Below are positions 6,943 to 55,621 of a DNA stretch of 56,349 nt, piece by piece (position 1 is the stretch's first letter; each line of letters begins with the position of its first letter). The stretch is from a bacterium (lineage in GTDB: Bacteria; Patescibacteriota; Minisyncoccia; CAIUEV01). Under the pieces are notes generated by a model, which was not told the DNA's origin, made no database searches, and saw nothing but the letters and a program-made list of their open reading frames with translations. The translations under genes and the position numbers were made by a program. The stretch covers positions 1-56,349 of the forward strand of contig JAJXZR010000001.1 of the NCBI GenBank assembly GCA_021779915.1. The letters are read 5' to 3'.

Positions 6943-8001
6943 CTAAAAAATTATTTCCTGGCTTTCTTTGGAAAACGACAGCAAATATCCTTCGTCGTAG
7001 GATCTTAAAATTAAACCAAGGTGGTCTCTGTCGCCGGAGGTGAGGTTTTGCACGTTGGGAGATCGAAGAAGGTAGTCGCTTCTTTCGTTGATCTCATGCG
7101 TTCCTGATCCGGCGTAAGCTCTGTAATCTTGAAGCCAATTCTCGATAGTAGGGTTGACAATTTCTCCATTATAAAGAAGCTTTATTGGATTCTGCCCGAT
7201 TTTTTGTTCACCGATTCGAGGATATTTTTTGATAAGATCGATAATCTCACCGCTTAAAAGGTTTTGGCTGAAAGGATTAATTTTTTCTCGAACATCCGAA
7301 ATAATATTATTGTCATTGTTGTTTTCGGGGCTTTCTAAAGAGGTTAATTCTTCGGAATATTCCTCCAAAACACTTTGGAGTGCGTCTCTAATTTGTTTTT
7401 GAGAAGGAAATTTTAGTTCTTCATAAAATTCGATAATTTGGAGTAAAAGAAATTTTTCTTCCTTACTAAGTTTAGCAACGTTGGGATTTTCGGTGATATA
7501 TTTGACGGGGATAATCTTTTCATGGCGGTCCATTCCATAAATCCGGTTATAGTCGCGTAACCAATTAAGCAAATAAGGAGGGGAATCTTGTTTTTCTCCA
7601 TTGATTCTAATATCGAACAATCCAATCCTTTCTTCATTCCTAAGCATCGCCTCTATAAAAAGTTGTAGGGTTTCCGGCCAAAGAACATCAGAAGTCAGGT
7701 TCATTTTAATAGAAAATCGATTCCTAATGTCGATGCCAACCTTAAAGGCTTTAACGAGAGATTTCTCAAATAGCCCCAATTGTTCTCTTTCGGATAAAGT
7801 TTGAAAGAGAATGAATTTCAAAAGACAGGCGTAAACTTCCAGTTCTTCCACTTGAGCTCGATTTTTCAAAACAGTTGGCGATTTTAAGAGCTCGTTTATT
7901 TTTTTTAGCTCTTCGTCCGCCTCGTCCATAAAATAAGTCTTCAAAATTTCTATCGTACTTTCTCTTATTTTTTTAATTTGTTCATTTGTATCTGACATCA
8001 A
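6943..8001 (-). CDS. Uncharacterised cytoplasmic protein with two internal repeats
   Basis: No known family is recognised. The protein has no signal peptide or membrane helix. Two segments of about 63 residues, near 133-196 and 278-340, resemble each other. Both run NGE..., then NWLRDYNRIYG or NWLQDYRAYAG, then a basic helix, then ENPNVAKLSKEEK or RSPNVQNLTSGDR, ending in EFYEEL or RSYDEG. The linker between them is Asn-rich. It starts at an ATG 22 bases before the gene for the large secreted protein, so co-expression is likely. The repeat may be a small protein-protein interaction module. As far as I recall, similar W-x2-DY repeats occur in unnamed CPR proteins, but I could not search. Confidence 0.8.
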   Translation of the reverse strand: MMSDTNEQIKKIRESTIEILKTYFMDEADEELKKINELLKSPTVLKNRAQVEELEVYACLLKFILFQTLSEREQLGLFEKSLVKAFKVGIDIRNRFSIKMNLTSDVLWPETLQLFIEAMLRNEERIGLFDIRINGEKQDSPPYLLNWLRDYNRIYGMDRHEKIIPVKYITENPNVAKLSKEEKFLLLQIIEFYEELKFPSQKQIRDALQSVLEEYSEELTSLESPENNNDNNIISDVREKINPFSQNLLSGEIIDLIKKYPRIGEQKIGQNPIKLLYNGEIVNPTIENWLQDYRAYAGSGTHEINERSDYLLRSPNVQNLTSGDRDHLGLILRSYDEGYLLSFSKESQEIIF

Positions 8002-8005
8002 AATA

Positions 8006-8120
8006 ATGTAAAATTAAAAGATCAAAATGCAAAATTGAGGAGTCGCCTTAGGCGACAATCAATTGAATGTTGCGATTAGCGACACCACAATTTTCCATTT
8101 TGATTTTTGCATTTTAAATT
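8006..8120. repeat. TGTCGC-core inverted repeat, copy 1
   Basis: This is a palindromic intergenic element of about 110 bases. The outer arms are A/T-rich (ATCAAAATGCAAAATTG against a matching right arm), and the middle holds AGTCGCCTTAGGCGACA followed by TGCGATTAGCGACACC. Related copies lie at 22984, 33008 and 50281. It carries no coding potential. Confidence 0.7.
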
Positions 8121-8158
8121 ATGCGCTTGTACAAAAATAACCAAAACACGTCTGGTGT

Positions 8159-9094
8159 TCAGACCAAATTGCTTCTCCAATTCTTCAATAAACTCAAATC
8201 CCGAGCCATTCCTTCCGGGGTTGGTGTTTCTAAAATCACGTCTGTATTATAATCCTCTTTATAAAAATAGTCTACTAAATTTAAAAAAGCTTTTTCTCCG
8301 ATTTTACCCTGGCCCAAGTGGGCGTGGCGATCTACTTTGGAATCAAATTCAGCCAGAGAGTCGTTAAAGTGGATAAGTTTTAATTTGTCCCTGCCAATCC
8401 ACTTTTCCATTTTAATGAGGTTGGATTTTATTTCTTCAGTAGTCCGAAAATCATAGCCGGAAGCAAATGCATGGGCAGTGTCCAAACAAAATCCACTGAG
8501 AGCGGGAACAGCCTCAAGATAGTAGGATATTTCTTCAAAGGTAGCTCCTAACACCGCTCCAGAACCGGCGGATATTTCAATAAGGAGAGGAATATTTTTT
8601 TCTTGTCCGGCAATTTTTTCCAGTCCCGCAACCACTCTTAAAAAGGCACTTGGATCAAACTTTCTTTTTTGAGCCAGAACTAAAAGCTCCTTAAAATATT
8701 TTTTAGAAAAACTCTCTGAGTAATTTTGCTCAAAAAGAGGTGTTTCAATTTTAAAATCCCTAGCGCTTCCCAAATGAGTTACGACGTATTTTGCTCCAAG
8801 AATCTTAGCTCTTTTAAGATCTTCTTTAATCGCATTGATAGAGCCAAAAAAAATTCGATTGTCTTTGGAAGCAAGATTGATGAAATAAGGAGTGTGGATA
8901 TAATAATTTTTTAAACCAAGCTTCTTCAATCCCTCTTTAAATTCTTTTACTTCGGCTTCTTCGAGTTCTTTTGCTTTTCCTCCGTGAGGAGAACGAGCAA
9001 AAAATTGAAAACACTCTCCGCCAAGAGATTCCACTCTCTCGGGAATTTTTGTAATACCACCGGAAGCACTGACATGGAAACCAAAGCGTAACAT
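8159..9094 (-). CDS. nfo: Endonuclease IV (AP endonuclease)
   Basis: This zinc enzyme cuts DNA 5' to abasic sites in base-excision repair, downstream of glycosylases such as MutM, which is also in this window. The start FGFHVSASGGI is the family's opening signature. Metal-binding motifs appear in order: YYIHTPYFINLAS, VTHLGSARDF, LLIEISAG, FCLDTAHAFASGYD, KLIHFNDS with DRHAHLGQGKIG, and a C-terminal VILETPTPEG. Its length of 311 is near the family norm of about 280-300. It is flanked by a palindromic repeat downstream and a MITE upstream, so it is probably transcribed alone. Confidence 0.95.
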   Translation of the reverse strand: MLRFGFHVSASGGITKIPERVESLGGECFQFFARSPHGGKAKELEEAEVKEFKEGLKKLGLKNYYIHTPYFINLASKDNRIFFGSINAIKEDLKRAKILGAKYVVTHLGSARDFKIETPLFEQNYSESFSKKYFKELLVLAQKRKFDPSAFLRVVAGLEKIAGQEKNIPLLIEISAGSGAVLGATFEEISYYLEAVPALSGFCLDTAHAFASGYDFRTTEEIKSNLIKMEKWIGRDKLKLIHFNDSLAEFDSKVDRHAHLGQGKIGEKAFLNLVDYFYKEDYNTDVILETPTPEGMARDLSLLKNWRSNLV

Positions 9095-9150
9095 TTCAAA
9101 TAATTAAAAATGTAAAATGCAATAAATATTTTTTAAGAAACGAGCTTACG

Positions 9151-9292
9151 TGTCATCCCCGGCGTGTCGACCGGGGATCCAGGCGGATAGTATTAATCTA
9201 GTAGAATATTGTTTTGTTTAGTTTTCTAAGAATGCACATTGAACTAACATTCAATTAGTCTAACTGGATCCTGGGTCAAGCCCGGGATGACA
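9151..9292. mobile_element. MITE-like element with TGTCATCC ends, copy 1
   Basis: The 142-base element begins TGTCATCCCCGGCGTGTCGA and ends with CCCGGGATGACA. Each end is itself a small GC-rich hairpin next to GGATCC. The interior is A/T-rich and non-coding. The two ends are inverted relative to each other, as in non-autonomous transposable elements. It separates nfo from gpmI. Other copies lie at 16422, 23937, 48418 and 51872. Confidence 0.75.
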
Positions 9293-9334
9293 CTGTCAAA
9301 TTAGTTTCTTGAAGTATCTATTACCCATTTATTT

Positions 9335-10942
9335 TTATTTTAGTGCATCTAGCAAACTGTTTCCTACCATATCATGAGGAACGGGGATATTCAATAAAGC
9401 AAGAATAGTAGGAGCGATATCCACCAACATTCCGTCCACCATGCTTTGATGGCGCATAATTTGGGTTTCTGTCCGCTCTTTTTGATTGTCCGGCGTCACA
9501 AAAAAACAAGGAACGGGATTGTCAGTGTGCTCTGTGGTAACTTCTCCGCTCTTGGGATCCATCATTACCTCAGCATTGCCATGATCCGAAGTGATAAGTA
9601 AACTACCTCCTCTCTCCAAAACGGATTTTGTTACATACCCTACACATTTATCAATTGATTCAACTGCTTTTACCGTTGCGCTAAAATTTCCGGTGTGTCC
9701 CAACATATCCGCGTTAGCGTAGTTGATGAGAATAAAATCGTATTTATTGAGGCTGATTGCATTTAGGACTTTTTCCGTTACCCCCGCTGCGCTCATTTCC
9801 GGGGTTTCTTCATAATTACTGACCTGTGGCGAAGGAACTAACATTCGGTCTTCTCCGGGAAAAGCCTCTTCACGACCACCATTAAAAAAATAAGTGACAT
9901 GGGCATACTTCTCTGTTTCGGCAATATGAAACTGTTTTTTTCCGGTATCAGAAATCACTTTGGCGATAGGGTTAACCACTTTTTGAGGTGGAAAAGCAAC
10001 ATCCGAATTAAGCCCGTCTTCGTAAGAAACTGTGGAAATAAAAAGGAGGTCGCGAATTTTTTTATCCCTTGGAAAACCATTAAAATCTTCTTCTATAAAG
10101 GATTTTGCGATCTGTCTGGCGCGATCTTCGCGAAAATTAAAGAATATGATAGCATCACCTTCGCGAACTGGACCAACGGGATCTCCTTTTTCATCAATTA
10201 TAGTTGTTGGCACTATGAACTCATCGGTAACGTTTTGATTATAAGAATCATGAATAACTTGCATGGGATCGGTCGCTTTATTTTCCCCGTTGCCAGTAAT
10301 TGAATTATAAGCTTTTTGAATTCGATCCCAATTTTGATTGCGATCCATACCGTAGTATCTTCCTCCAATGGAAGCTATTTTTCCAATCCCCGATTCGGTT
10401 AATTTTTCCTGAAGCATTTCAATAAAACCTTCTCCTGATTTTGGCAAAGTATCTCGACCATCGGTAAAAGCATGAATAAAAAGTTTTTTAATTCCGCTAC
10501 TGATCGCCATTTCAATTAATGCAAAAAGGTGGTCGGTGTGTCCATGTACCCCGCCATTAGATATAATGCCCATTAGATGGAGGGCACTTCCCTTTTTTTT
10601 GACGTATTCCATCGCTTCAAGGTATGCTGGATTGGTAAAAAAGGTACCATTCTGAATGGCTAAGTTGATGCGGGGCAAATTTTGATAAAGTATCATTCCT
10701 GAACCTATTGTCATATGTCCTACTTCTGAGTTGCCTGGTTCTCCCCAAGAAAGCCCTACAGATATTCCTGAGGCTTGGAGTGCAATACAAGGATAATTTC
10801 CTTTCAAATAGTTAATATAGGGAGTCTTGGCACTGGCTATAGCATTGCCTTCGATAGAAGAATTGATACCCCATCCATCAAGTATCATAAGGACAATTGG
10901 CCGGTATTCCTTGACGGTATTTATTGAGTTTTGAAAAGACAT
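9335..10942 (-). CDS. gpmI: 2,3-bisphosphoglycerate-independent phosphoglycerate mutase
   Basis: It interconverts 3- and 2-phosphoglycerate in the cytoplasm using two manganese ions and a phosphoserine. The N-terminal metal site VLMILDGWG, the catalytic serine in EPGNSEVGHMTIG, and the GGVHGHTDHLF, AFTDGRDT and FNFREDRARQ segments are all present. The second metal cluster shows as NYANADMLGHTGN and TSDHGNAE, with a C-terminal TEHTDNPVP. The 535 residues compare with about 510 in typical members. It starts divergently from the ferredoxin-gap-mreB set across a hairpin repeat. It belongs with gap and pyk to the lower glycolytic branch encoded here. Confidence 0.96.
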   Translation of the reverse strand: MSFQNSINTVKEYRPIVLMILDGWGINSSIEGNAIASAKTPYINYLKGNYPCIALQASGISVGLSWGEPGNSEVGHMTIGSGMILYQNLPRINLAIQNGTFFTNPAYLEAMEYVKKKGSALHLMGIISNGGVHGHTDHLFALIEMAISSGIKKLFIHAFTDGRDTLPKSGEGFIEMLQEKLTESGIGKIASIGGRYYGMDRNQNWDRIQKAYNSITGNGENKATDPMQVIHDSYNQNVTDEFIVPTTIIDEKGDPVGPVREGDAIIFFNFREDRARQIAKSFIEEDFNGFPRDKKIRDLLFISTVSYEDGLNSDVAFPPQKVVNPIAKVISDTGKKQFHIAETEKYAHVTYFFNGGREEAFPGEDRMLVPSPQVSNYEETPEMSAAGVTEKVLNAISLNKYDFILINYANADMLGHTGNFSATVKAVESIDKCVGYVTKSVLERGGSLLITSDHGNAEVMMDPKSGEVTTEHTDNPVPCFFVTPDNQKERTETQIMRHQSMVDGMLVDIAPTILALLNIPVPHDMVGNSLLDALK

Positions 10943-12411: not shown

Positions 12412-13488
12412 ATGCTTAGACTAAAAAAATTTTGGCACGCTTGGCAAAGCCGTTGGCGTTTCGATATTGGAATTGACCTAGGAACGGCCAATACTTTGGT
12501 TTATGTCAAGGGAAAAGGCGTCATAATTAATGAACCCTCAGTTGTTGCGGTCAATAAAAAGACCGGCAAGATTTTGGCAATTGGTACGGAAGCTAAAAAA
12601 ATGGTAGGAAAAACCCCGGCTCATATAGTTGCAACGAGACCTTTAGTCGAAGGAGTGATTTCCGATTTCGAAGTAACCGAGCAGATGCTGACTTATTTTA
12701 TTAACAAAGTGCGGGATGGTCGTTTTTCTTCTTTAATTAAACCAAGAGTCTTGGTGGGAATTCCTTCTGGTGTGACGGAAGTGGAAAAAAGAGCCGTTCA
12801 AGAGGCAACTCTTTCCGGAGGAGCGGGTGAAGCGTACTTAATTGACGAACCGATTGCGGCAGCCATTGGTGCCCGGCTTCCCATTCAAGAAGCAGGAGGA
12901 AATATGATTGTGGATATCGGAGGAGGAACTTCGGAAATTGCGGTAATTTCTCTTGGAGGAGCGGTGGTGGCAAAGAGTTTGCGAGTAGGAGGAGACAAAA
13001 TGAATGAGGATATCATCAACTATGTCAGGGAAAATTTCAGTTTGCTTCTGGGTGAAAAAACGGCTGAAGATGTAAAAGTAGCGATTGGATCGGCCTACCG
13101 CCTAGATCAACCGATAAAAATCGCTATTCGAGGAAGAGACCTGATAACTGGTCTTCCTAAAGAAATTGAAGTGAGCGACAGTGACATTCGCCAGGCTACT
13201 CAAAAATCGGTAAGAATTATCATAAACACCATAAAAACAGTTTTAGAAACCACGCCTCCTGAACTTTTGGGAGATATTATGCGAAGAGGAGTGATTCTGG
13301 CTGGCGGAGGAAGCTTGCTTCGCGGGCTTGATCGATTGATTGCCGAACAAACCGAGATGCCAGTAAAGGTGGTTGATGATCCTCTTACGGCAGTAGTAAG
13401 AGGAACCGGAATCGTCCTGGAAGACATCGACGAACTTCGCTCAGTTCTTATTGACACATATGTTGAAGATAATAAACCTAAGTGGTAA
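12412..13488 (+). CDS. mreB: Rod shape-determining protein MreB
   Basis: MreB is a bacterial actin that forms membrane-associated filaments guiding lateral wall synthesis. The protein starts with a basic amphipathic segment (LRLKKFWHAWQSRWR) followed by the phosphate-1 motif IGIDLGTANTLVYV. Other actin-fold motifs are NEPSVVAVNK, VGIPSGVTEVEKRAV, the phosphate-2 loop MIVDIGGGTSEIAVI and GVILAGGGSLLRGLD. Its length of 358 is slightly above the usual 345 because of the N-terminal extension. It is followed after a 90-base repeat by the VirB2-like/L,D-transpeptidase-like gene on the same strand. No mreC or mreD follows; mreC is at 3183. Confidence 0.96.
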   Translation: MLRLKKFWHAWQSRWRFDIGIDLGTANTLVYVKGKGVIINEPSVVAVNKKTGKILAIGTEAKKMVGKTPAHIVATRPLVEGVISDFEVTEQMLTYFINKVRDGRFSSLIKPRVLVGIPSGVTEVEKRAVQEATLSGGAGEAYLIDEPIAAAIGARLPIQEAGGNMIVDIGGGTSEIAVISLGGAVVAKSLRVGGDKMNEDIINYVRENFSLLLGEKTAEDVKVAIGSAYRLDQPIKIAIRGRDLITGLPKEIEVSDSDIRQATQKSVRIIINTIKTVLETTPPELLGDIMRRGVILAGGGSLLRGLDRLIAEQTEMPVKVVDDPLTAVVRGTGIVLEDIDELRSVLIDTYVEDNKPKW

Positions 13489-13490
13489 TA

Positions 13491-13572
13491 TAAGTTTGTA
13501 AAGTTTGTAAAGTTAAAAAGTTAAAAAATATTTACTTGATGAACTTTATAAACTTTATAACTTGATGAACTA
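13491..13572. repeat. Hairpin made of AGTTTGTAA/AACTTTATA units
   Basis: AAGTTTGTAAAGTTTGTAA on the left can pair with the ACTTTATAAACTTTATAA run on the right. It fills the space between mreB and the next gene and belongs to the same loose family as the element at 10950. It could attenuate transcription out of mreB, but there is no proper T-tract. Confidence 0.55.
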
Positions 13573-13578
13573 ATACAA

Positions 13579-15897
13579 ATGTCTCAAAACAAAAAAATTG
13601 CCCTGCTAATTTCGGTTTTTTCCTTGGCTCCTGTGTTTGTAGTTGCCCAGGACAAACTCGTGAATTGTTCAGGGATGGACTGTTCTTTTTGCTCTTTAAT
13701 TGAAATTTTCAGTTTGACGAGTAAATGGATTTTTTCCATCTCAGCGACTGTCGCAGTTTTCCTCCTAGTAATAAGCGGGCTTTATTATATTTTTTCTATT
13801 GGAAACAACCGATACCTAAAAATTGCGAGACTAACTGCTGTATACTCGGCTTTGGGTTTTTCTTTCATTCTGGTGGCTTTTTTGGTAGTTAGTACAATAA
13901 TTTGGATGTTGGGAGGAAAGAAAGAAGGAAGTTTTCTTAGTTTTGAATGTACGGTAATGAATTATGCTGATGAAAAAGATGCTAGCCTTGCAACAGATAC
14001 TAGTCCTTGGTCGGAAATTCCTTACACACAAAACATAAATAAACTAATATCTGACAAATTAGGAGCTATCGTACTTGATAATAATACTAATCCACAAAAC
14101 TTAAGCCAGGATCTTTTAGATATGAATCCTGATAACACTTTAAAGGCTATTATTGCAAGCAGTAGCTTGACTGCGGATGATATTATGAATTATATAAAAT
14201 ATACTAATGGCTATACCGACAATCTGAAAAATATTGATCCAGCCAAAATTAATGAATATGTTGCTTCTTTGCAAAATAAGATTCAAGAAGTTGCTTCAAT
14301 CAGCCGAACAGATGCAGATGTTAGCATAGATGGAAAAAATAATTATTCTAATATTTCCGGTGACTATCCAGTTGAAGACGGAACTTTATCTTCGGCGATT
14401 AGTAAATTGATTAACAGCTTAAAGAGTAAAAAAGCTTCTGGCAGTACAGTGATTTATCCTGATGCCAAATCTTCTAATACCATGAATTTATGCATTGATT
14501 CAGGAGGGGATTGGACTCAGTTTCAAAACGAATGCAAGGCTTTAGGAGGCACTAATTGTTCAGATGTCTCCAATCCAACGATGGGTTGCCAGTGTCCAAG
14601 CGGGATGACTCTTTTTCATAACCAATGCATAAAAAATTCTGACTATAAATCAAGTAGCAGTGCAGATAAAGACGACGATGGAGATGGAATAACCAATAAT
14701 CTTGATAAATGCCCAGGAACACCTAAGGGAGAAATTCCTGATAAAGATCCCTCCAGTTCCCGTTTGGGTTGTTCCTGTTCTCAAATTGCCCTTCAAACCA
14801 GAACTTGTCCTGCCACTCGTTGTGAAGGAACGAATCTGGTAACTTATCCAGGTTCCGGAAAAGATCTTTGTTTTAATGGAATGGTGACTGAACATTCCTG
14901 TGACGCAGTAAAAACTGAAGTGGTAAGCCAATGCCAAACTATTAGCCAAATTACCAATCCCACCCAACAGGAAAACGTAGCCAAGCAGGATCCTGATCTT
15001 TATAATAAAATCAAAGATGCTTTGAATCGTAACAAAGGCTCTAATAATGGCTCTGGCGGAAGCGGAGGGGGTACAGGCGGAGGCGGTAACACAGGAGGTG
15101 GCGGTAATACGGGAGGCGGTAATACGGGAGGGGGTAATACCCAACCAGACGGAAATATTCCTCCTGACAAAGGACCAGGCAGTTTCAACCCTTCTCCCAG
15201 CTTCAAAGAAATGGCCGAATGTATCGGTTTCAAGGATGGAAAAATTCCCTATAATGGGGTTATAGTCCTCCTTTTGAACAAGGAAGATCCTACTAATGCT
15301 CTACACCCCAGTCGAAACGCTAGTAGACTTTTTTATTTGGACAGAAACGGACAGGTAGTTGGGATGAACGGAGATAAAGGAACAGAGCAGGGTGGTCTGC
15401 CAGCGGGTCCTTGGACGAAAGGAAGTGGAGGAACAGCTTGGTCGCCAGGTTTTACTTTTTTCAATGCGCAAACCGTTCATGTTAATGGCAGTCCCGACCC
15501 TTGTTCTTTTAAATCAGGTGCTGGAGTAAGTTGTGGTCCACAAGGGGAAGGAAAATTAAGTAACGGTCAGTTGGGAGGAGATAAATTTGAGGGAATGTCG
15601 GGATGCAATATGCATTCTGGAAACAACCGTTCTCATTCTAGAGGTTGTTTGACGATGGGGGGTAAAGAAAGGTGCGGTTTTACTAATGATATAAAATCAA
15701 TGGCCACCCAAAATCAAGGAAAAATCATGATGGCGACGCTGACGGCCGAAAATACTGATAAAAATGACCCACATGTTAAAAGCGATTATTGCGGAAAAAT
15801 GGATCCTTACAAAGCAATTGACAAATATAAAAATCAGAAAGATTCTAGTTTTGACCCATTTCAAGGGTATTCCGGCGGGGATTCCAGGGGGAAATAA
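13579..15897 (+). CDS. VirB2-like membrane protein with Ca-binding repeat, Gly-rich linker and L,D-transpeptidase-like C-terminal domain
   Basis: The order is as follows: signal peptide (1-23); LVNCSGMDCSFC with cysteines at 30, 35 and 38; two membrane helices at about 45-70 and 85-112; a Ser/Asn-rich stretch; a Cys-rich part holding a thrombospondin type 3 motif (DKDDDGDGITNNLDKCP); a Gly/Asn linker of about 40 residues; and a C-terminal domain. That last domain contains H679 and C690 in MHSGNNRSHSRGCLTM. This resembles the H...SxGC catalytic box of L,D-transpeptidases (YkuD and DUF2778 types), so I infer a peptidoglycan-acting enzyme. The first 110 residues closely match the start of the protein at 53348-55621 and resemble VirB2/TrbC-type pilins. 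It lies directly after mreB. The N-terminal assignment is good; the enzymatic call is moderate. Confidence 0.75.
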   Translation: MSQNKKIALLISVFSLAPVFVVAQDKLVNCSGMDCSFCSLIEIFSLTSKWIFSISATVAVFLLVISGLYYIFSIGNNRYLKIARLTAVYSALGFSFILVAFLVVSTIIWMLGGKKEGSFLSFECTVMNYADEKDASLATDTSPWSEIPYTQNINKLISDKLGAIVLDNNTNPQNLSQDLLDMNPDNTLKAIIASSSLTADDIMNYIKYTNGYTDNLKNIDPAKINEYVASLQNKIQEVASISRTDADVSIDGKNNYSNISGDYPVEDGTLSSAISKLINSLKSKKASGSTVIYPDAKSSNTMNLCIDSGGDWTQFQNECKALGGTNCSDVSNPTMGCQCPSGMTLFHNQCIKNSDYKSSSSADKDDDGDGITNNLDKCPGTPKGEIPDKDPSSSRLGCSCSQIALQTRTCPATRCEGTNLVTYPGSGKDLCFNGMVTEHSCDAVKTEVVSQCQTISQITNPTQQENVAKQDPDLYNKIKDALNRNKGSNNGSGGSGGGTGGGGNTGGGGNTGGGNTGGGNTQPDGNIPPDKGPGSFNPSPSFKEMAECIGFKDGKIPYNGVIVLLLNKEDPTNALHPSRNASRLFYLDRNGQVVGMNGDKGTEQGGLPAGPWTKGSGGTAWSPGFTFFNAQTVHVNGSPDPCSFKSGAGVSCGPQGEGKLSNGQLGGDKFEGMSGCNMHSGNNRSHSRGCLTMGGKERCGFTNDIKSMATQNQGKIMMATLTAENTDKNDPHVKSDYCGKMDPYKAIDKYKNQKDSSFDPFQGYSGGDSRGK

Positions 15898-15940: not shown

Positions 15941-16414
15941 ATGAAGATCAAAGTTACTTGGGGAACCGGGACGGGAAACACTCTTTTGAGTTCTTTCGAC
16001 AGTGCTTTATTTGATGCGGGAATTGCTAATTATAATTTGATTCCCTTAAGTTCGGTCATTCCTCCCAAATCTAAAATCGAAGTGAAAAAAATAAATCTGC
16101 AAGAATCAAAAAAAGATTTTGGTAAAAGGCTTTATGTGGTTTTAAGTCGCAATTGTACCGCTAAAAAAGACGCCAGTATTTTTGCCGGAGTAGGCTGGGT
16201 CATGAATGAAAAAGAGCAAAAAGGCTTGTTTGTTGAACATCACGGGGAAAGTGAAAAAGAAGTTGAAACTTTGATAAAAAAATCCTTAACTGACATGACT
16301 GTTTACCGCAAGGATAGTTTTGGAGAAATCAATATGAAAATAACTGGCATAAAATGCACTGGAAAACCAGTTTCGGCACTAGTTTGTGCGGTTTATAAAG
16401 TCAGTAAATGGTAA
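15941..16414 (+). CDS. pdaD: Pyruvoyl-dependent arginine decarboxylase
   Basis: This enzyme turns arginine into agmatine, a first step to polyamines or an acid-resistance reaction, using a pyruvoyl group made by self-cleavage. The diagnostic segment is DAGIANYNLIPLSSVIPP: cleavage would occur between Ser37 and Ser38, with Ser38 becoming the pyruvoyl. The N-terminal GTGTGNTLLSSFDSALFDAG, the GVGWVMNEKEQKGLFVEHHG block and the C-terminal SALVCAVYKV also match the family. Its length of 157 is typical. The family is best known from archaea, chlamydiae and a few bacteria. No agmatinase or spermidine synthase gene is in the window. A MITE begins 7 bases after the stop. Confidence 0.88.
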   Translation: MKIKVTWGTGTGNTLLSSFDSALFDAGIANYNLIPLSSVIPPKSKIEVKKINLQESKKDFGKRLYVVLSRNCTAKKDASIFAGVGWVMNEKEQKGLFVEHHGESEKEVETLIKKSLTDMTVYRKDSFGEINMKITGIKCTGKPVSALVCAVYKVSKW

Positions 16415-52141: not shown

Positions 52142-53359
52142 ATGAACTCATCTTCGCCCGAAATCCTTCTAATCACCCGCCCGCTCACCCCCCCTTGGGA
52201 CGAGGCTAGCAAGAATTTGGCTTATACAATTGCAAAAAATATTACCGAATATAAATTTCATATTCTGGTAGGGAAGTATGATTCAACTCTTCCCAAACAC
52301 ATTACCCAACATTTGATTTATAAAGGGGCTGATTGGACGGGAATCCAAAAAACCCGTTTAATTTTGTCACTTCCTAAAATTTTAAAAAATAATCCCGGGA
52401 TAAGCATTGCCCATCTACTTTTCGCTCCAACTCCCCTTAACACTCGAGTGCTTGGGACTATTCTAAAAAGATTCGAAGTACAAATCATTCAAAATCTGGC
52501 TTGCCCCCCTCAAAACAAAAAAACCAATCTTAATTTTGCAGACAAAATCATTGTTTATTCCAAATATACCGCAGAGAGGATCAATCAAAAAAACGTCAAT
52601 ATAATTCCGCCTTTCATTGATTTTGAAAAATTTCCGGTTCTAAGTGAAAAGGCAAGAAGTGATTTAAGAAAGAAATGGAGAATTGGAGAGAATGACAAAA
52701 TAATACTTTTTCCGGGAGAATACAGCCGATTAAACGCACTGGGAACGCTTTGGAAAGGATACACAGGATTAATTTCCAATTTCCAATTTCCAACCTTGCC
52801 TACCGGCAGGCAGGTTTCCAAAAAATTTTCAAGTTCCAATGACAAAATTAATTTAAAGCTTTTTATGGCGTGTCGGATTAAGAATAAAAGAGATTTGGTA
52901 TTAGAAAAAAAGTTTAAAAAACTGGTTAATTTAAGTCAATTTAAAGATAATGTGTGGTTTCTGGGTAAAATTGAGAAACCGGAAGAAATGTATCAGATTG
53001 CCGACTTGACTGTCTTCCCAGTTAAAAAAATGGAAGGGAAGTTTGATTTTCCCTTTGTCTTGCTTGAATCCTTAGCTTGCGGAACACCCGTTTTAACCAG
53101 TGCTATTGGGGCGCTTTCTGAGATTTGGAGAGGAGAAAAAGAGTATGGAGAAAAATACGTTTTTGAAAAAGAGGAAGAATTCGTGAGAAAAGCTGGTGAA
53201 ATTTTAGAAGGAGAAAAGAAAAAGGATGATCTATCTAATTTTGTAAAAGAAAAATTTTCTAAGGATAAAATTCTAAGAAACTACAAGGAGATTTATGATT
53301 TAGGAAATATTTTTTATTCTAGTACGAAGAAAAATCTTAAATCTAACCTACCATTGTAG
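52142..53359 (+). CDS. GT-B glycosyltransferase (GT4-like) with in-frame repeat insertion
   Basis: It would transfer a sugar from a nucleotide donor to a lipid or glycan. The N-terminal half begins PEILLITRPLTPPWDEASKN, and DKIIVYSKYTAERINQKNVN is the domain link. The C-terminal GT1-like domain has IILFPGEYSRLNALGTLWKG, NVWFLGKIEKPEEMYQIADL and FPFVLLESLACGTPVLTSAIG. Between YTGLI and KINLKLFM an unusual segment reads SNFQFPTLPTGRQVSKKFSS; its DNA is the dispersed palindrome at 52794-52814 with flanking TTCCAA units. The frame is open from 52088 inside the MITE. I chose the ATG at 52142, before the first conserved strand. It overlaps the convergent downstream gene by 12 bases. Confidence 0.85.
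   Translation: MNSSSPEILLITRPLTPPWDEASKNLAYTIAKNITEYKFHILVGKYDSTLPKHITQHLIYKGADWTGIQKTRLILSLPKILKNNPGISIAHLLFAPTPLNTRVLGTILKRFEVQIIQNLACPPQNKKTNLNFADKIIVYSKYTAERINQKNVNIIPPFIDFEKFPVLSEKARSDLRKKWRIGENDKIILFPGEYSRLNALGTLWKGYTGLISNFQFPTLPTGRQVSKKFSSSNDKINLKLFMACRIKNKRDLVLEKKFKKLVNLSQFKDNVWFLGKIEKPEEMYQIADLTVFPVKKMEGKFDFPFVLLESLACGTPVLTSAIGALSEIWRGEKEYGEKYVFEKEEEFVRKAGEILEGEKKKDDLSNFVKEKFSKDKILRNYKEIYDLGNIFYSSTKKNLKSNLPL
52794..52814. repeat. Dispersed 20-bp palindrome inside a coding gene
   Basis: The sequence at 52794 (CCTTGCCTACCGGCAGGCAG, plus one G) is the exact reverse complement of the palindrome in MITE copy 3 (24070-24089) over 20 bases. It also matches 17 bases in MITE copy 4 (48564-48580). 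Here it keeps the reading frame and encodes LPTGRQ. Confidence 0.85.
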
Positions 53360-55621
53360 TAATTTTTTCCAAGCATTGTTTTTATAGCAATTTAAGATGT
53401 TCCTTCCATAATTCGGTTCTGTTTCTTTGCCTGGTCCATATCTATCCGCCAGCGACACAAGGTCGTTGTCGTTGCCGATCGGTTTTCCATTGCCATTTGT
53501 TCCTCTTTTTTTGAAATCAAGTAGGGCATAGGAAAGAGCAGCGGAAAGGTTGGGGTCTGAACGAAGCAATTCTCTTTTTTTAGTAAAATTTTCGCTCATT
53601 ATTATTTTTTTTAAATCCCCCTTTCCATCCCTCGCAACTTTATCAGAGAGCTCTTTAAAATGTTCTGGTGCATATTTTTCCATTTGTTTAAGAGCGTCCT
53701 TACTGTCATTCATACACATTTGACCGATTCCCGAACAGCCCGAACTACTCATCGCACCGGCGTCGAATTTTGATTCGTATTGAAAAAAACACATGGCAAA
53801 ATCAGTTGGAATATTTAAATCCTTTCCGTTTTCAGCAATTTCTTTGCGCACCCCTTCCAACATTCCTCTGATTTGTTCTCTCTCTTCCAGCGTGAGAATT
53901 CGATCAGTCGAAACACGATATTTTAAATCGGAAATATCATAATTATCAACAGCAGAAACACGTTCTGCCACCGTCGATCCGCTTGGGTTATTAGTTTCTT
54001 GGCTTGTTGTCTGGGTTACAGAAGAACTAGTTGGTTGAACATCCTCATTGATTTTATTCGTCGCTCCGATAGAAGTCGGGTCTTGCAAAGATTCCGGGGT
54101 TGGAGCGGAAGGGGCCTTAGGATTGTAAAGAGTTCCATTATTTGGTGCAGGCGGTTCAGGCAGAGTTGGCAATGTTGGAATGTTGGGAGCAAGATTTTCT
54201 GCTTCGCCATAAGCTTTCGTAACCTTGGAAGTAACTTCCGAGATAATCCCCGTTTCTTCACTACTTGAATTTTCTTTTTGAATAATTTGTTTAGCCATTT
54301 GGGCCATTTGGGAACTGAAAGCAAGGGTATCTTCAACTGTACCAGTTGCATCCTTTACAAGCCCCGTAGGCAAAATACCGGAGTTATAAGTCAAATCAGT
54401 CATTTCCCCCGTTGATTTTTGTTTCATTTCAACATCTTTTACGATTGTGCCAGCAAGTTCCTGTAAAGAATCGTCCGTATAACTTTTGTTTAGAACTGTG
54501 TCAGCAACGACCTGAGAGATTGATTCTGTAGCTTTTTGAGCCGTTTCCTGAGAAATATTGGGAGGAAAATTAAAAGTGATTGGATTATCCTTGTTTAAGG
54601 AATAATTATCTTTTTTAGCGTCGTAATTGAAATTGAAAGTAACGTAGGAAAGATCCGTTTTAATTTCATCGCTACTTAGAATGGGTTTGTTTTCAATATA
54701 GACCAAACCGTCTTTGGTGATTGTTTTAATAGCTTGATTTGGATTTTGGTAAATATTCTTTGGCCAAAGATTATTGAATTGAGAAGGTGTTTTTCCTTGC
54801 TCTCCCAAATAGACAGGGATTTCTGTGGTAGGAGAGTCAGAAACAAGCTCTGAAATTAATTGTTTGATATTTTTGGTAGTCTGGGAACTGTTAGAGCCTA
54901 TATAATTGTTTAGATTTACAAATTGAGAAACATTGATTGAACCGGAACCGAATGTATTTTTTGGTAAAACCGTATAAAGAATACTCTTTTTCTCGGAAGC
55001 TTGCTTGACTGCAGTAATAATTTGTTTTGCCGAGTCGTCAAGTGGTTGCCCTCCAAGGCCATGGAGAAAAAAGTATTTATTTTGAGGAATTTTATCTAAA
55101 ATTAGCGAGGAAAGATCCTCTAATCTTACAGGGTTATTTCTACCACCTATCCCATTCAAAAGTACTTCATTGGCATACTGAATTTGATCAGGATTTTGTT
55201 CTTCCGTTCTATTTTCTGCATTGCTAGAAATTATAGGCGGATTGCATTCAATTTTCCACCAAGATGTTTGATTATAGCCAAGTAGAGAATAAAGGGTGTG
55301 TATCAAAAGCCAAGCTAAAAGGCAAACAGAAAAGCCAATTAAACTGAATTTTAATCCTCTTTTTGCTATTTTTAAGTAGCCGGAGCGAAAAAAAGAGCTC
55401 AGATAAAACAATCCATAGACAATAATAAAAAACAAGGCTGTTGCAAACGAAACCGATAACAAAAAATAAAATGACTTTTCAAGGAGCATTATAAAATTGC
55501 AAAAATCACACCCCGTGCCGGTGCAATTAACCAACCCCGAGGGGTCTGAAGCACTGGAGAATAAAGGAAAAATAGAAAAAATAACCAATAAACTTATAAA
55601 TCCTTTTAATTTTCGCGCCAT
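53348..55621 (-). CDS. VirB2-like membrane protein with C-terminal lytic transglycosylase (SLT) domain
   Basis: Order of parts: signal peptide (1-24); LVNCTGTGCDFCNF with cysteines at 33, 38 and 41; membrane helices at about 50-75 and 88-112; a long Ser/Thr/Asn/Gln-rich stalk (about 120-560) with Pro-rich NIPTLPTLPEPPAPNNGTLY; and a C-terminal SLT-type domain. The SLT domain has FAMCFFQYESKFDAGAMSSS, GCSGIGQM and NLSAALSYALLDFKK. E616 would be the catalytic Glu that cuts glycan strands, and Y-G-P in SLADRYGPG fits the family end. The first 110 residues are paralogous to the protein at 13579-15897. It is followed upstream (minus strand) by a cytidylate-kinase-like gene. I infer a wall-cutting component of a surface or secretion machine. 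Confidence 0.82.
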   Translation of the reverse strand: MARKLKGFISLLVIFSIFPLFSSASDPSGLVNCTGTGCDFCNFIMLLEKSFYFLLSVSFATALFFIIVYGLFYLSSFFRSGYLKIAKRGLKFSLIGFSVCLLAWLLIHTLYSLLGYNQTSWWKIECNPPIISSNAENRTEEQNPDQIQYANEVLLNGIGGRNNPVRLEDLSSLILDKIPQNKYFFLHGLGGQPLDDSAKQIITAVKQASEKKSILYTVLPKNTFGSGSINVSQFVNLNNYIGSNSSQTTKNIKQLISELVSDSPTTEIPVYLGEQGKTPSQFNNLWPKNIYQNPNQAIKTITKDGLVYIENKPILSSDEIKTDLSYVTFNFNYDAKKDNYSLNKDNPITFNFPPNISQETAQKATESISQVVADTVLNKSYTDDSLQELAGTIVKDVEMKQKSTGEMTDLTYNSGILPTGLVKDATGTVEDTLAFSSQMAQMAKQIIQKENSSSEETGIISEVTSKVTKAYGEAENLAPNIPTLPTLPEPPAPNNGTLYNPKAPSAPTPESLQDPTSIGATNKINEDVQPTSSSVTQTTSQETNNPSGSTVAERVSAVDNYDISDLKYRVSTDRILTLEEREQIRGMLEGVRKEIAENGKDLNIPTDFAMCFFQYESKFDAGAMSSSGCSGIGQMCMNDSKDALKQMEKYAPEHFKELSDKVARDGKGDLKKIIMSENFTKKRELLRSDPNLSAALSYALLDFKKRGTNGNGKPIGNDNDLVSLADRYGPGKETEPNYGRNILNCYKNNAWKKLLQW

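Follow-up and report, generated by a model that had tools for sequence, protein, structure and literature searches.

A pilin-module protein with a divergent SLT end and its paralogues with predicted cell-wall enzyme ends in a Patescibacterium

Described VirB1 and VirB2 proteins

The VirB1 enzymes known from Gram-positive bacteria are all membrane-anchored, have extracellular enzyme domains and are placed via VirB8 (PMC12857230). PrgK, encoded by pCF10, has an intracellular domain and one helix followed by LytM, SLT and CHAP domains (PMC11323569). In Patescibacteria, a 2025 survey reported VirB2-like arrays and scarce VirB1; most of those with VirB2 are without VirB1, from which it was concluded that the latter seems dispensable for the putative VirB2 pilus, and VirB1 homologues were found associated with virB4 in Paceibacteria (PMC12102498). 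Cultivated Patescibacteria are all obligate episymbionts (PMC12206443). In the one Patescibacterium tested, S. epibionticum, the type IV secretion system (T4SS) is essential for growth on the host (PMC10633639). Fusions between a pilin module and a wall hydrolase, as found here, could harbour VirB1 activity that a search with one family would miss, and are testable candidates for the way in which an epibiont secretion machine crosses a wall.

The protein studied here is encoded in a 56,349-nucleotide stretch (the window) of a genome of the class Minisyncoccia. Like PrgK (pCF10), TraG (pIP501) and Orf14 (Tn916), it combines a membrane anchor with a predicted extracellular SLT-type domain and, in case of its paralogue on contig C29, the gene lies near virB4. 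Unlike in the Gram-positive VirB1 enzymes, the anchor is a two-helix VirB2-like Cys module whose ends are probably both outside, and whereas PrgK stacks its enzymes in one chain, here they are spread across eight paralogues. The module belongs to the same Pfam family as the Patescibacteria VirB2-like pilins (PF18895 arrays; PMC12102498) and both forms occur in this genome, but the small pilins stop after the second helix while the fusions add 230 to 700 residues with enzyme ends and have four conserved cysteines. The SLT motif with its catalytic Glu is shared with Slt70, MltE and MltC; the similarity to them is very low, however, and the window protein has a membrane module in front and no Slt70-type superhelix. 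No description of pilin-hydrolase fusions was found in the literature searched, which mostly did not reach subscription papers; what is new is the combination of known modules and the conserved set in which they occur.

The SLT protein of the window and its pilin module

The gene (53348..55621, minus strand; ATG start) codes for 757 aa, exactly the ORF, with an SLT end and E616, proposed from the sequence-only reading. Its product is arranged as a signal peptide, CxxxxCxxC, two membrane helices, a linker and the SLT-like end. The putative signal peptide (residues ~1-25; 55547..55621, minus strand) was read from the sequence. The N-terminal motif, LVNCTGTGCDFC, is followed by two long hydrophobic helices and WWKIEC; the Cys-pilin (VirB2-like) module, recognised with a profile from other genera, spans residues 29-129 (C33, C38, C41, two helices, WW, C126; 55235..55537, minus strand) and is predicted to fold as a two-helix hairpin (40-75 and 81-114; pLDDT ~72). 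Between WWKIEC and the SLT-like end lie a conserved middle domain (residues ~150-275, GGRNNP...KYFFLHGLGGQ, from an alignment of five sequences; 54797..55174, minus strand), also present in the SLT proteins of T4SS operons, and a long low-complexity linker. The similarity to the C29 paralogue extends beyond the module (BLASTP E 5e-23 for the residues after it).

The whole protein matches Pfam T4SS_pilin (E 3e-4) and SLT (E 0.016). Its SLT-like catalytic domain (residues ~575-750; 53372..53899, minus strand; E616 at 53774-53776) scores 18.6 bits with PF01464 (E 0.0014), below the cut-off of 21.3; the C29 member of the family reaches 49.6 bits and, like the relatives in L095, L101, L111 and L115, exceeds that cut-off. 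The window protein carries a catalytic-Glu motif (E616-S617, then G628-C-S-G-I-G-Q, GxxGLxQ-like); C611, E616, S617, G628 and G633 are invariant across five full-length relatives and the predicted catalytic Glu across seven sequences. A low-confidence model has its closest PDB folds in the lytic transglycosylases Slt and MltE, though at Foldseek E >0.1. The SLT end is divergent but probably real.

The second protein of the window with this module (13579..15897, plus strand; 772 aa; ORF exact) has the module at residues 26-127 (13654..13959, plus strand), a Cys-rich and TSP3-like middle and an L,D-transpeptidase-like end (residues 542-772; 15202..15894, plus strand). The resemblance of the two N-termini noted from the sequence alone is borne out: they share 35.6% identity over ~117 residues (BLASTP E 6e-22), identical C-x4-C-x2-C spacing and a fourth Cys following the second helix. 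A profile built exclusively from three other genera gives 97.5 bits for the SLT protein and 94.0 bits for its paralogue. Leave-one-out profiles within the genome give 92 and 82 bits, against a best score of 8.7 bits among ~1000 shuffled sequences, which excludes chance; the prospect that the N-termini might prove unrelated in a profile comparison can thus be set aside, and by all these scores they are truly homologous. The Pfam family is T4SS_pilin (PF18895, VirB2-like). The two window copies stay under its 26.6-bit cut-off (21.1 and 15.9 bits) and four of the six other paralogues exceed it, all eight being homologous to one another. With an own-genome profile the eight score 114-137 bits and the small pilins follow, after a sharp gap, at 46 bits or less; because the eight themselves went into that profile, the one from other genera serves as the independent test. 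No relatives were found in viral collections.

The proteins have the layout of PF18895, namely a signal peptide, two helices and a basic cytoplasmic loop. The inter-helix loop has a mean charge of +2.9 (24 of 29 loops are positive) and the outer segments one of −1.3. By the positive-inside rule, this basic loop between acidic segments would place the enzyme end outside.

The L,D-transpeptidase-like end contains the motif H...SRGC...R (His / Ser-x-Gly-Cys / Arg), its His, Gly-Cys and Arg being invariant in seven sequences; the spacing of the Arg differs from that in the usual L,D-transpeptidase motif. No YkuD match was obtained from Pfam at E up to 5 for seven members of the family, a PDB profile search gave no match, and the single-sequence fold (pLDDT 34) is unusable. 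The L,D-transpeptidase identity is thus motif-level and the activity predicted. The earlier idea of a machine that cuts and re-seals a wall leans on this motif, for which neither Pfam nor PDB profiles gave a match, and is not supported as proposed. The gene directly follows mreB (12412-13488, plus strand). A short gene, arginine-decarboxylase-like by eye, lies nearby (15941-16414), and a similar one is found close to the L,D-transpeptidase-like gene of G001 (L065:6914-7387). The sister group of the L,D-transpeptidase-like gene is found near a UppP-like gene. On C45 another mreB-like gene has a small pilin gene in its vicinity (L027:3828-4829, 7624-8106).

Eight paralogues, T4SS genes and fusions in other genomes

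Beyond the window, the genome was covered as stretches around search matches. It has exactly eight Cys-module proteins: two with SLT ends (C29 and the window), two L,D-transpeptidase-like (the window and C19), two with HExxH (C42 and C27), one with VanY (C28; PF02557, VanY / peptidase M15, E 3e-10, 40.4 bits, cut-off 25) and one enzyme-free (C46). One membrane module is indeed joined to different predicted peptidoglycan enzymes, as had been suggested, with four kinds of catalytic-looking end; the two-enzyme pair then envisaged is in fact a group of eight. The genera G001 and G003, of the same family, have eight each, again with two SLT, two L,D-transpeptidase-like, two HExxH and one VanY; the eighth copy is enzyme-free in G003 and cut by the contig end in G001. 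G002 has five such proteins. Because the profiles behind the class labels of the ends were made from these very proteins, the labels show which ends are related and are no proof of activity. Pfam, PDB and PHROG searches of the L,D-transpeptidase-like and HExxH ends gave no firm family match, and HExxH activity is a motif-level prediction. On most of the eight the head is an enzyme with a known or predicted wall-cutting role, and this near-fixed repertoire is suggestive of a secretion machine equipped with a constant set of wall tools rather than of a two-protein pair. As to the possibility of a general CPR anchor with random partners, which would have refuted the sequence-only reading, the module is widespread in Patescibacteria, but its partners are not random, because one 2+2+2+1 set of enzymes recurs in three genera.

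The search for VirB4, VirB6, VirD4 and pilus genes elsewhere in the genome, advised from the sequence-only reading, recovered VirB4 (C29), a VirB6-like protein (C42), two VirD4-like ATPases (C20 and C16), PrgI (C34) and small pilins. On C29 the genes are ordered TrsD, VirB4, a 217-aa two-helix protein and pilin-SLT, an order kept in the other three genera (4/4); G001 has two SLT genes in tandem at the TrsD-VirB4 operon. The 217-aa protein (L021:11467-12120, minus strand), found between virB4 and the SLT gene in all four, has no Pfam match. It was considered as PrgI/VirB3 and ruled out (hhalign to real PrgI proteins, 7.9% probability). On C42 the gene for the VirB6-like protein (TrbL E 0.0019; hhalign 100% to VirB6-like proteins of T4SS operons) is followed by a glycosyltransferase-like gene, the pilin-HExxH gene and two Cys-rich genes with the pilin module. 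G002 and G003 retain the run from the VirB6-like gene through the glycosyltransferase-like one to pilin-HExxH (three of four genera, that of the window included). The two Cys-rich genes of C42 (L022:9738-13055 and 13094-14914, plus strand) code for proteins with long Cys-rich repeats, adjoin the VirB6-like gene and are without a known enzyme end. The suspected link to a secretion apparatus is thus found in the T4SS pilin family of the module and in the position of the SLT and HExxH paralogues next to the VirB4 and VirB6 genes; the two window genes themselves lie outside the T4SS operon. The C29 paralogue and its relatives are encoded in a T4SS locus, as expected of a VirB1 component, which the window SLT gene is not. 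Orthology of the window SLT gene to the operon SLT gene was ruled out: it is a paralogue of dispersed location whose sister, in G003, is dispersed as well.

The VirB4 of the genome is nearest to Candidatus Moranbacteria / Moraniibacteriota records (~60-87% identity). At virB4 loci of other Moranbacteria, pilin-SLT fusions were verified with Pfam in L095, L101, L111 and L115 and identified by close similarity in L125, L133 and L148. The pilin proteins with M15-like ends at such loci (L100, L101, L103, L145) stay at motif level because Pfam did not confirm them. Note that at the loci of these other Moranbacteria genes of 876-1014 aa downstream of virB4 were rejected as VirB6, which corresponds to the upstream genes of 696-845 aa. 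An even draw of 112 genomes of the class contains 28 with an SLT match, of which 11 carry the SLT domain on a pilin module (G000 and G001, whose module lies outside the short locus, are counted as fusions); eight of the 11 belong outside the family of the window. Further fusions of the module carry NlpC/P60 and glucosaminidase domains, and some pilin-module proteins of the class have non-enzymatic partners (PKD or Cys-rich). The gene at L038:1120-2397 (plus strand) joins a glutaredoxin domain, the T4SS pilin module and an NlpC/P60 end behind a signal peptide in one chain, and is followed by a gene for a pilin-glucosaminidase fusion (L055).

Possible roles of the module-borne enzymes

We lean, with slightly more confidence than doubt, towards the window protein being a VirB1-type peptidoglycan-cleaving enzyme held in the membrane by a two-helix, VirB2-like (PF18895) pilin module. 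With both module ends outward, the enzyme would work in the wall space. The module may dock at the T4SS translocon or pilus, or be incorporated into it, and so bring the wall enzyme to where a channel has to cross the wall of the Patescibacterium itself and perhaps that of a host; the docking function may reside in the anchor. Among the paralogue heads, SLT would cut glycan strands and VanY remove D-Ala; of the other two kinds, one is zinc-protease-like and one probably an L,D-transpeptidase or carboxypeptidase. The same enzyme set in three genera, the T4SS-linked SLT and HExxH paralogues, the fusions at virB4 loci and in 11 of 28 genomes of the class, and the membrane anchors and extracellular domains likewise found in Gram-positive VirB1 enzymes (PMC12857230) all argue for a VirB1-type function. 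The argument is weakened because the window genes lie outside the T4SS operon, the SLT end is below the cut-off, the L,D-transpeptidase-like and HExxH ends have no firm family and some pilin modules of the class carry non-enzymatic partners. Owing to the position of their genes, T4SS membership of the window copies is a deduction, and the window protein would be VirB1-like in function only.

In six of eight cases the gene is found apart from virB4 and VirB6, which would also fit a general surface anchor that holds many outward enzymes, with the operon copies alone serving the T4SS and the window proteins acting as ordinary hydrolases of wall growth or division. The L,D-transpeptidase-like gene after mreB (12412-13488), its sister group near a UppP-like gene, the C-terminal position of the module behind passenger domains in G032 and the PKD or Cys-rich partners elsewhere agree with this explanation, which we regard as somewhat unlikely: the family of the module is one of T4SS pilins, in several genera two of the enzyme classes have a T4SS link, and the partners are strongly biased towards wall enzymes. 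Many heads on one module, long flexible linkers and Cys-rich middles could alternatively describe weapons that the T4SS loads and that attack the wall of a host or prey cell nearby. The episymbiotic life style (PMC12206443) and the T4SS essential on the host (PMC10633639) point the same way, but a membrane hairpin favours anchoring over release, and a weapon role seems quite improbable. A wider and unlikely reading would be that the T4SS pilus or translocon of Moranbacteria is a mosaic, with different wall enzymes on some of its VirB2-like subunits, an organelle opening own and host peptidoglycan, with VirB1 merged into the pilin family and not lost.

Two further arrangements of the module were observed. 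In the genome G032 the layout is reversed, with large outward passenger domains first and the module C-terminal (L077:4246-5919, L077:8390-10345 and L079:3834-5351, plus strand). The tandem SLT genes of G001 (L060:5138-7564 and 7592-10117, minus strand) code for near-identical membrane segments with different ends, and one of them is without the first Cys residues, a possible sign of duplication or gene conversion.
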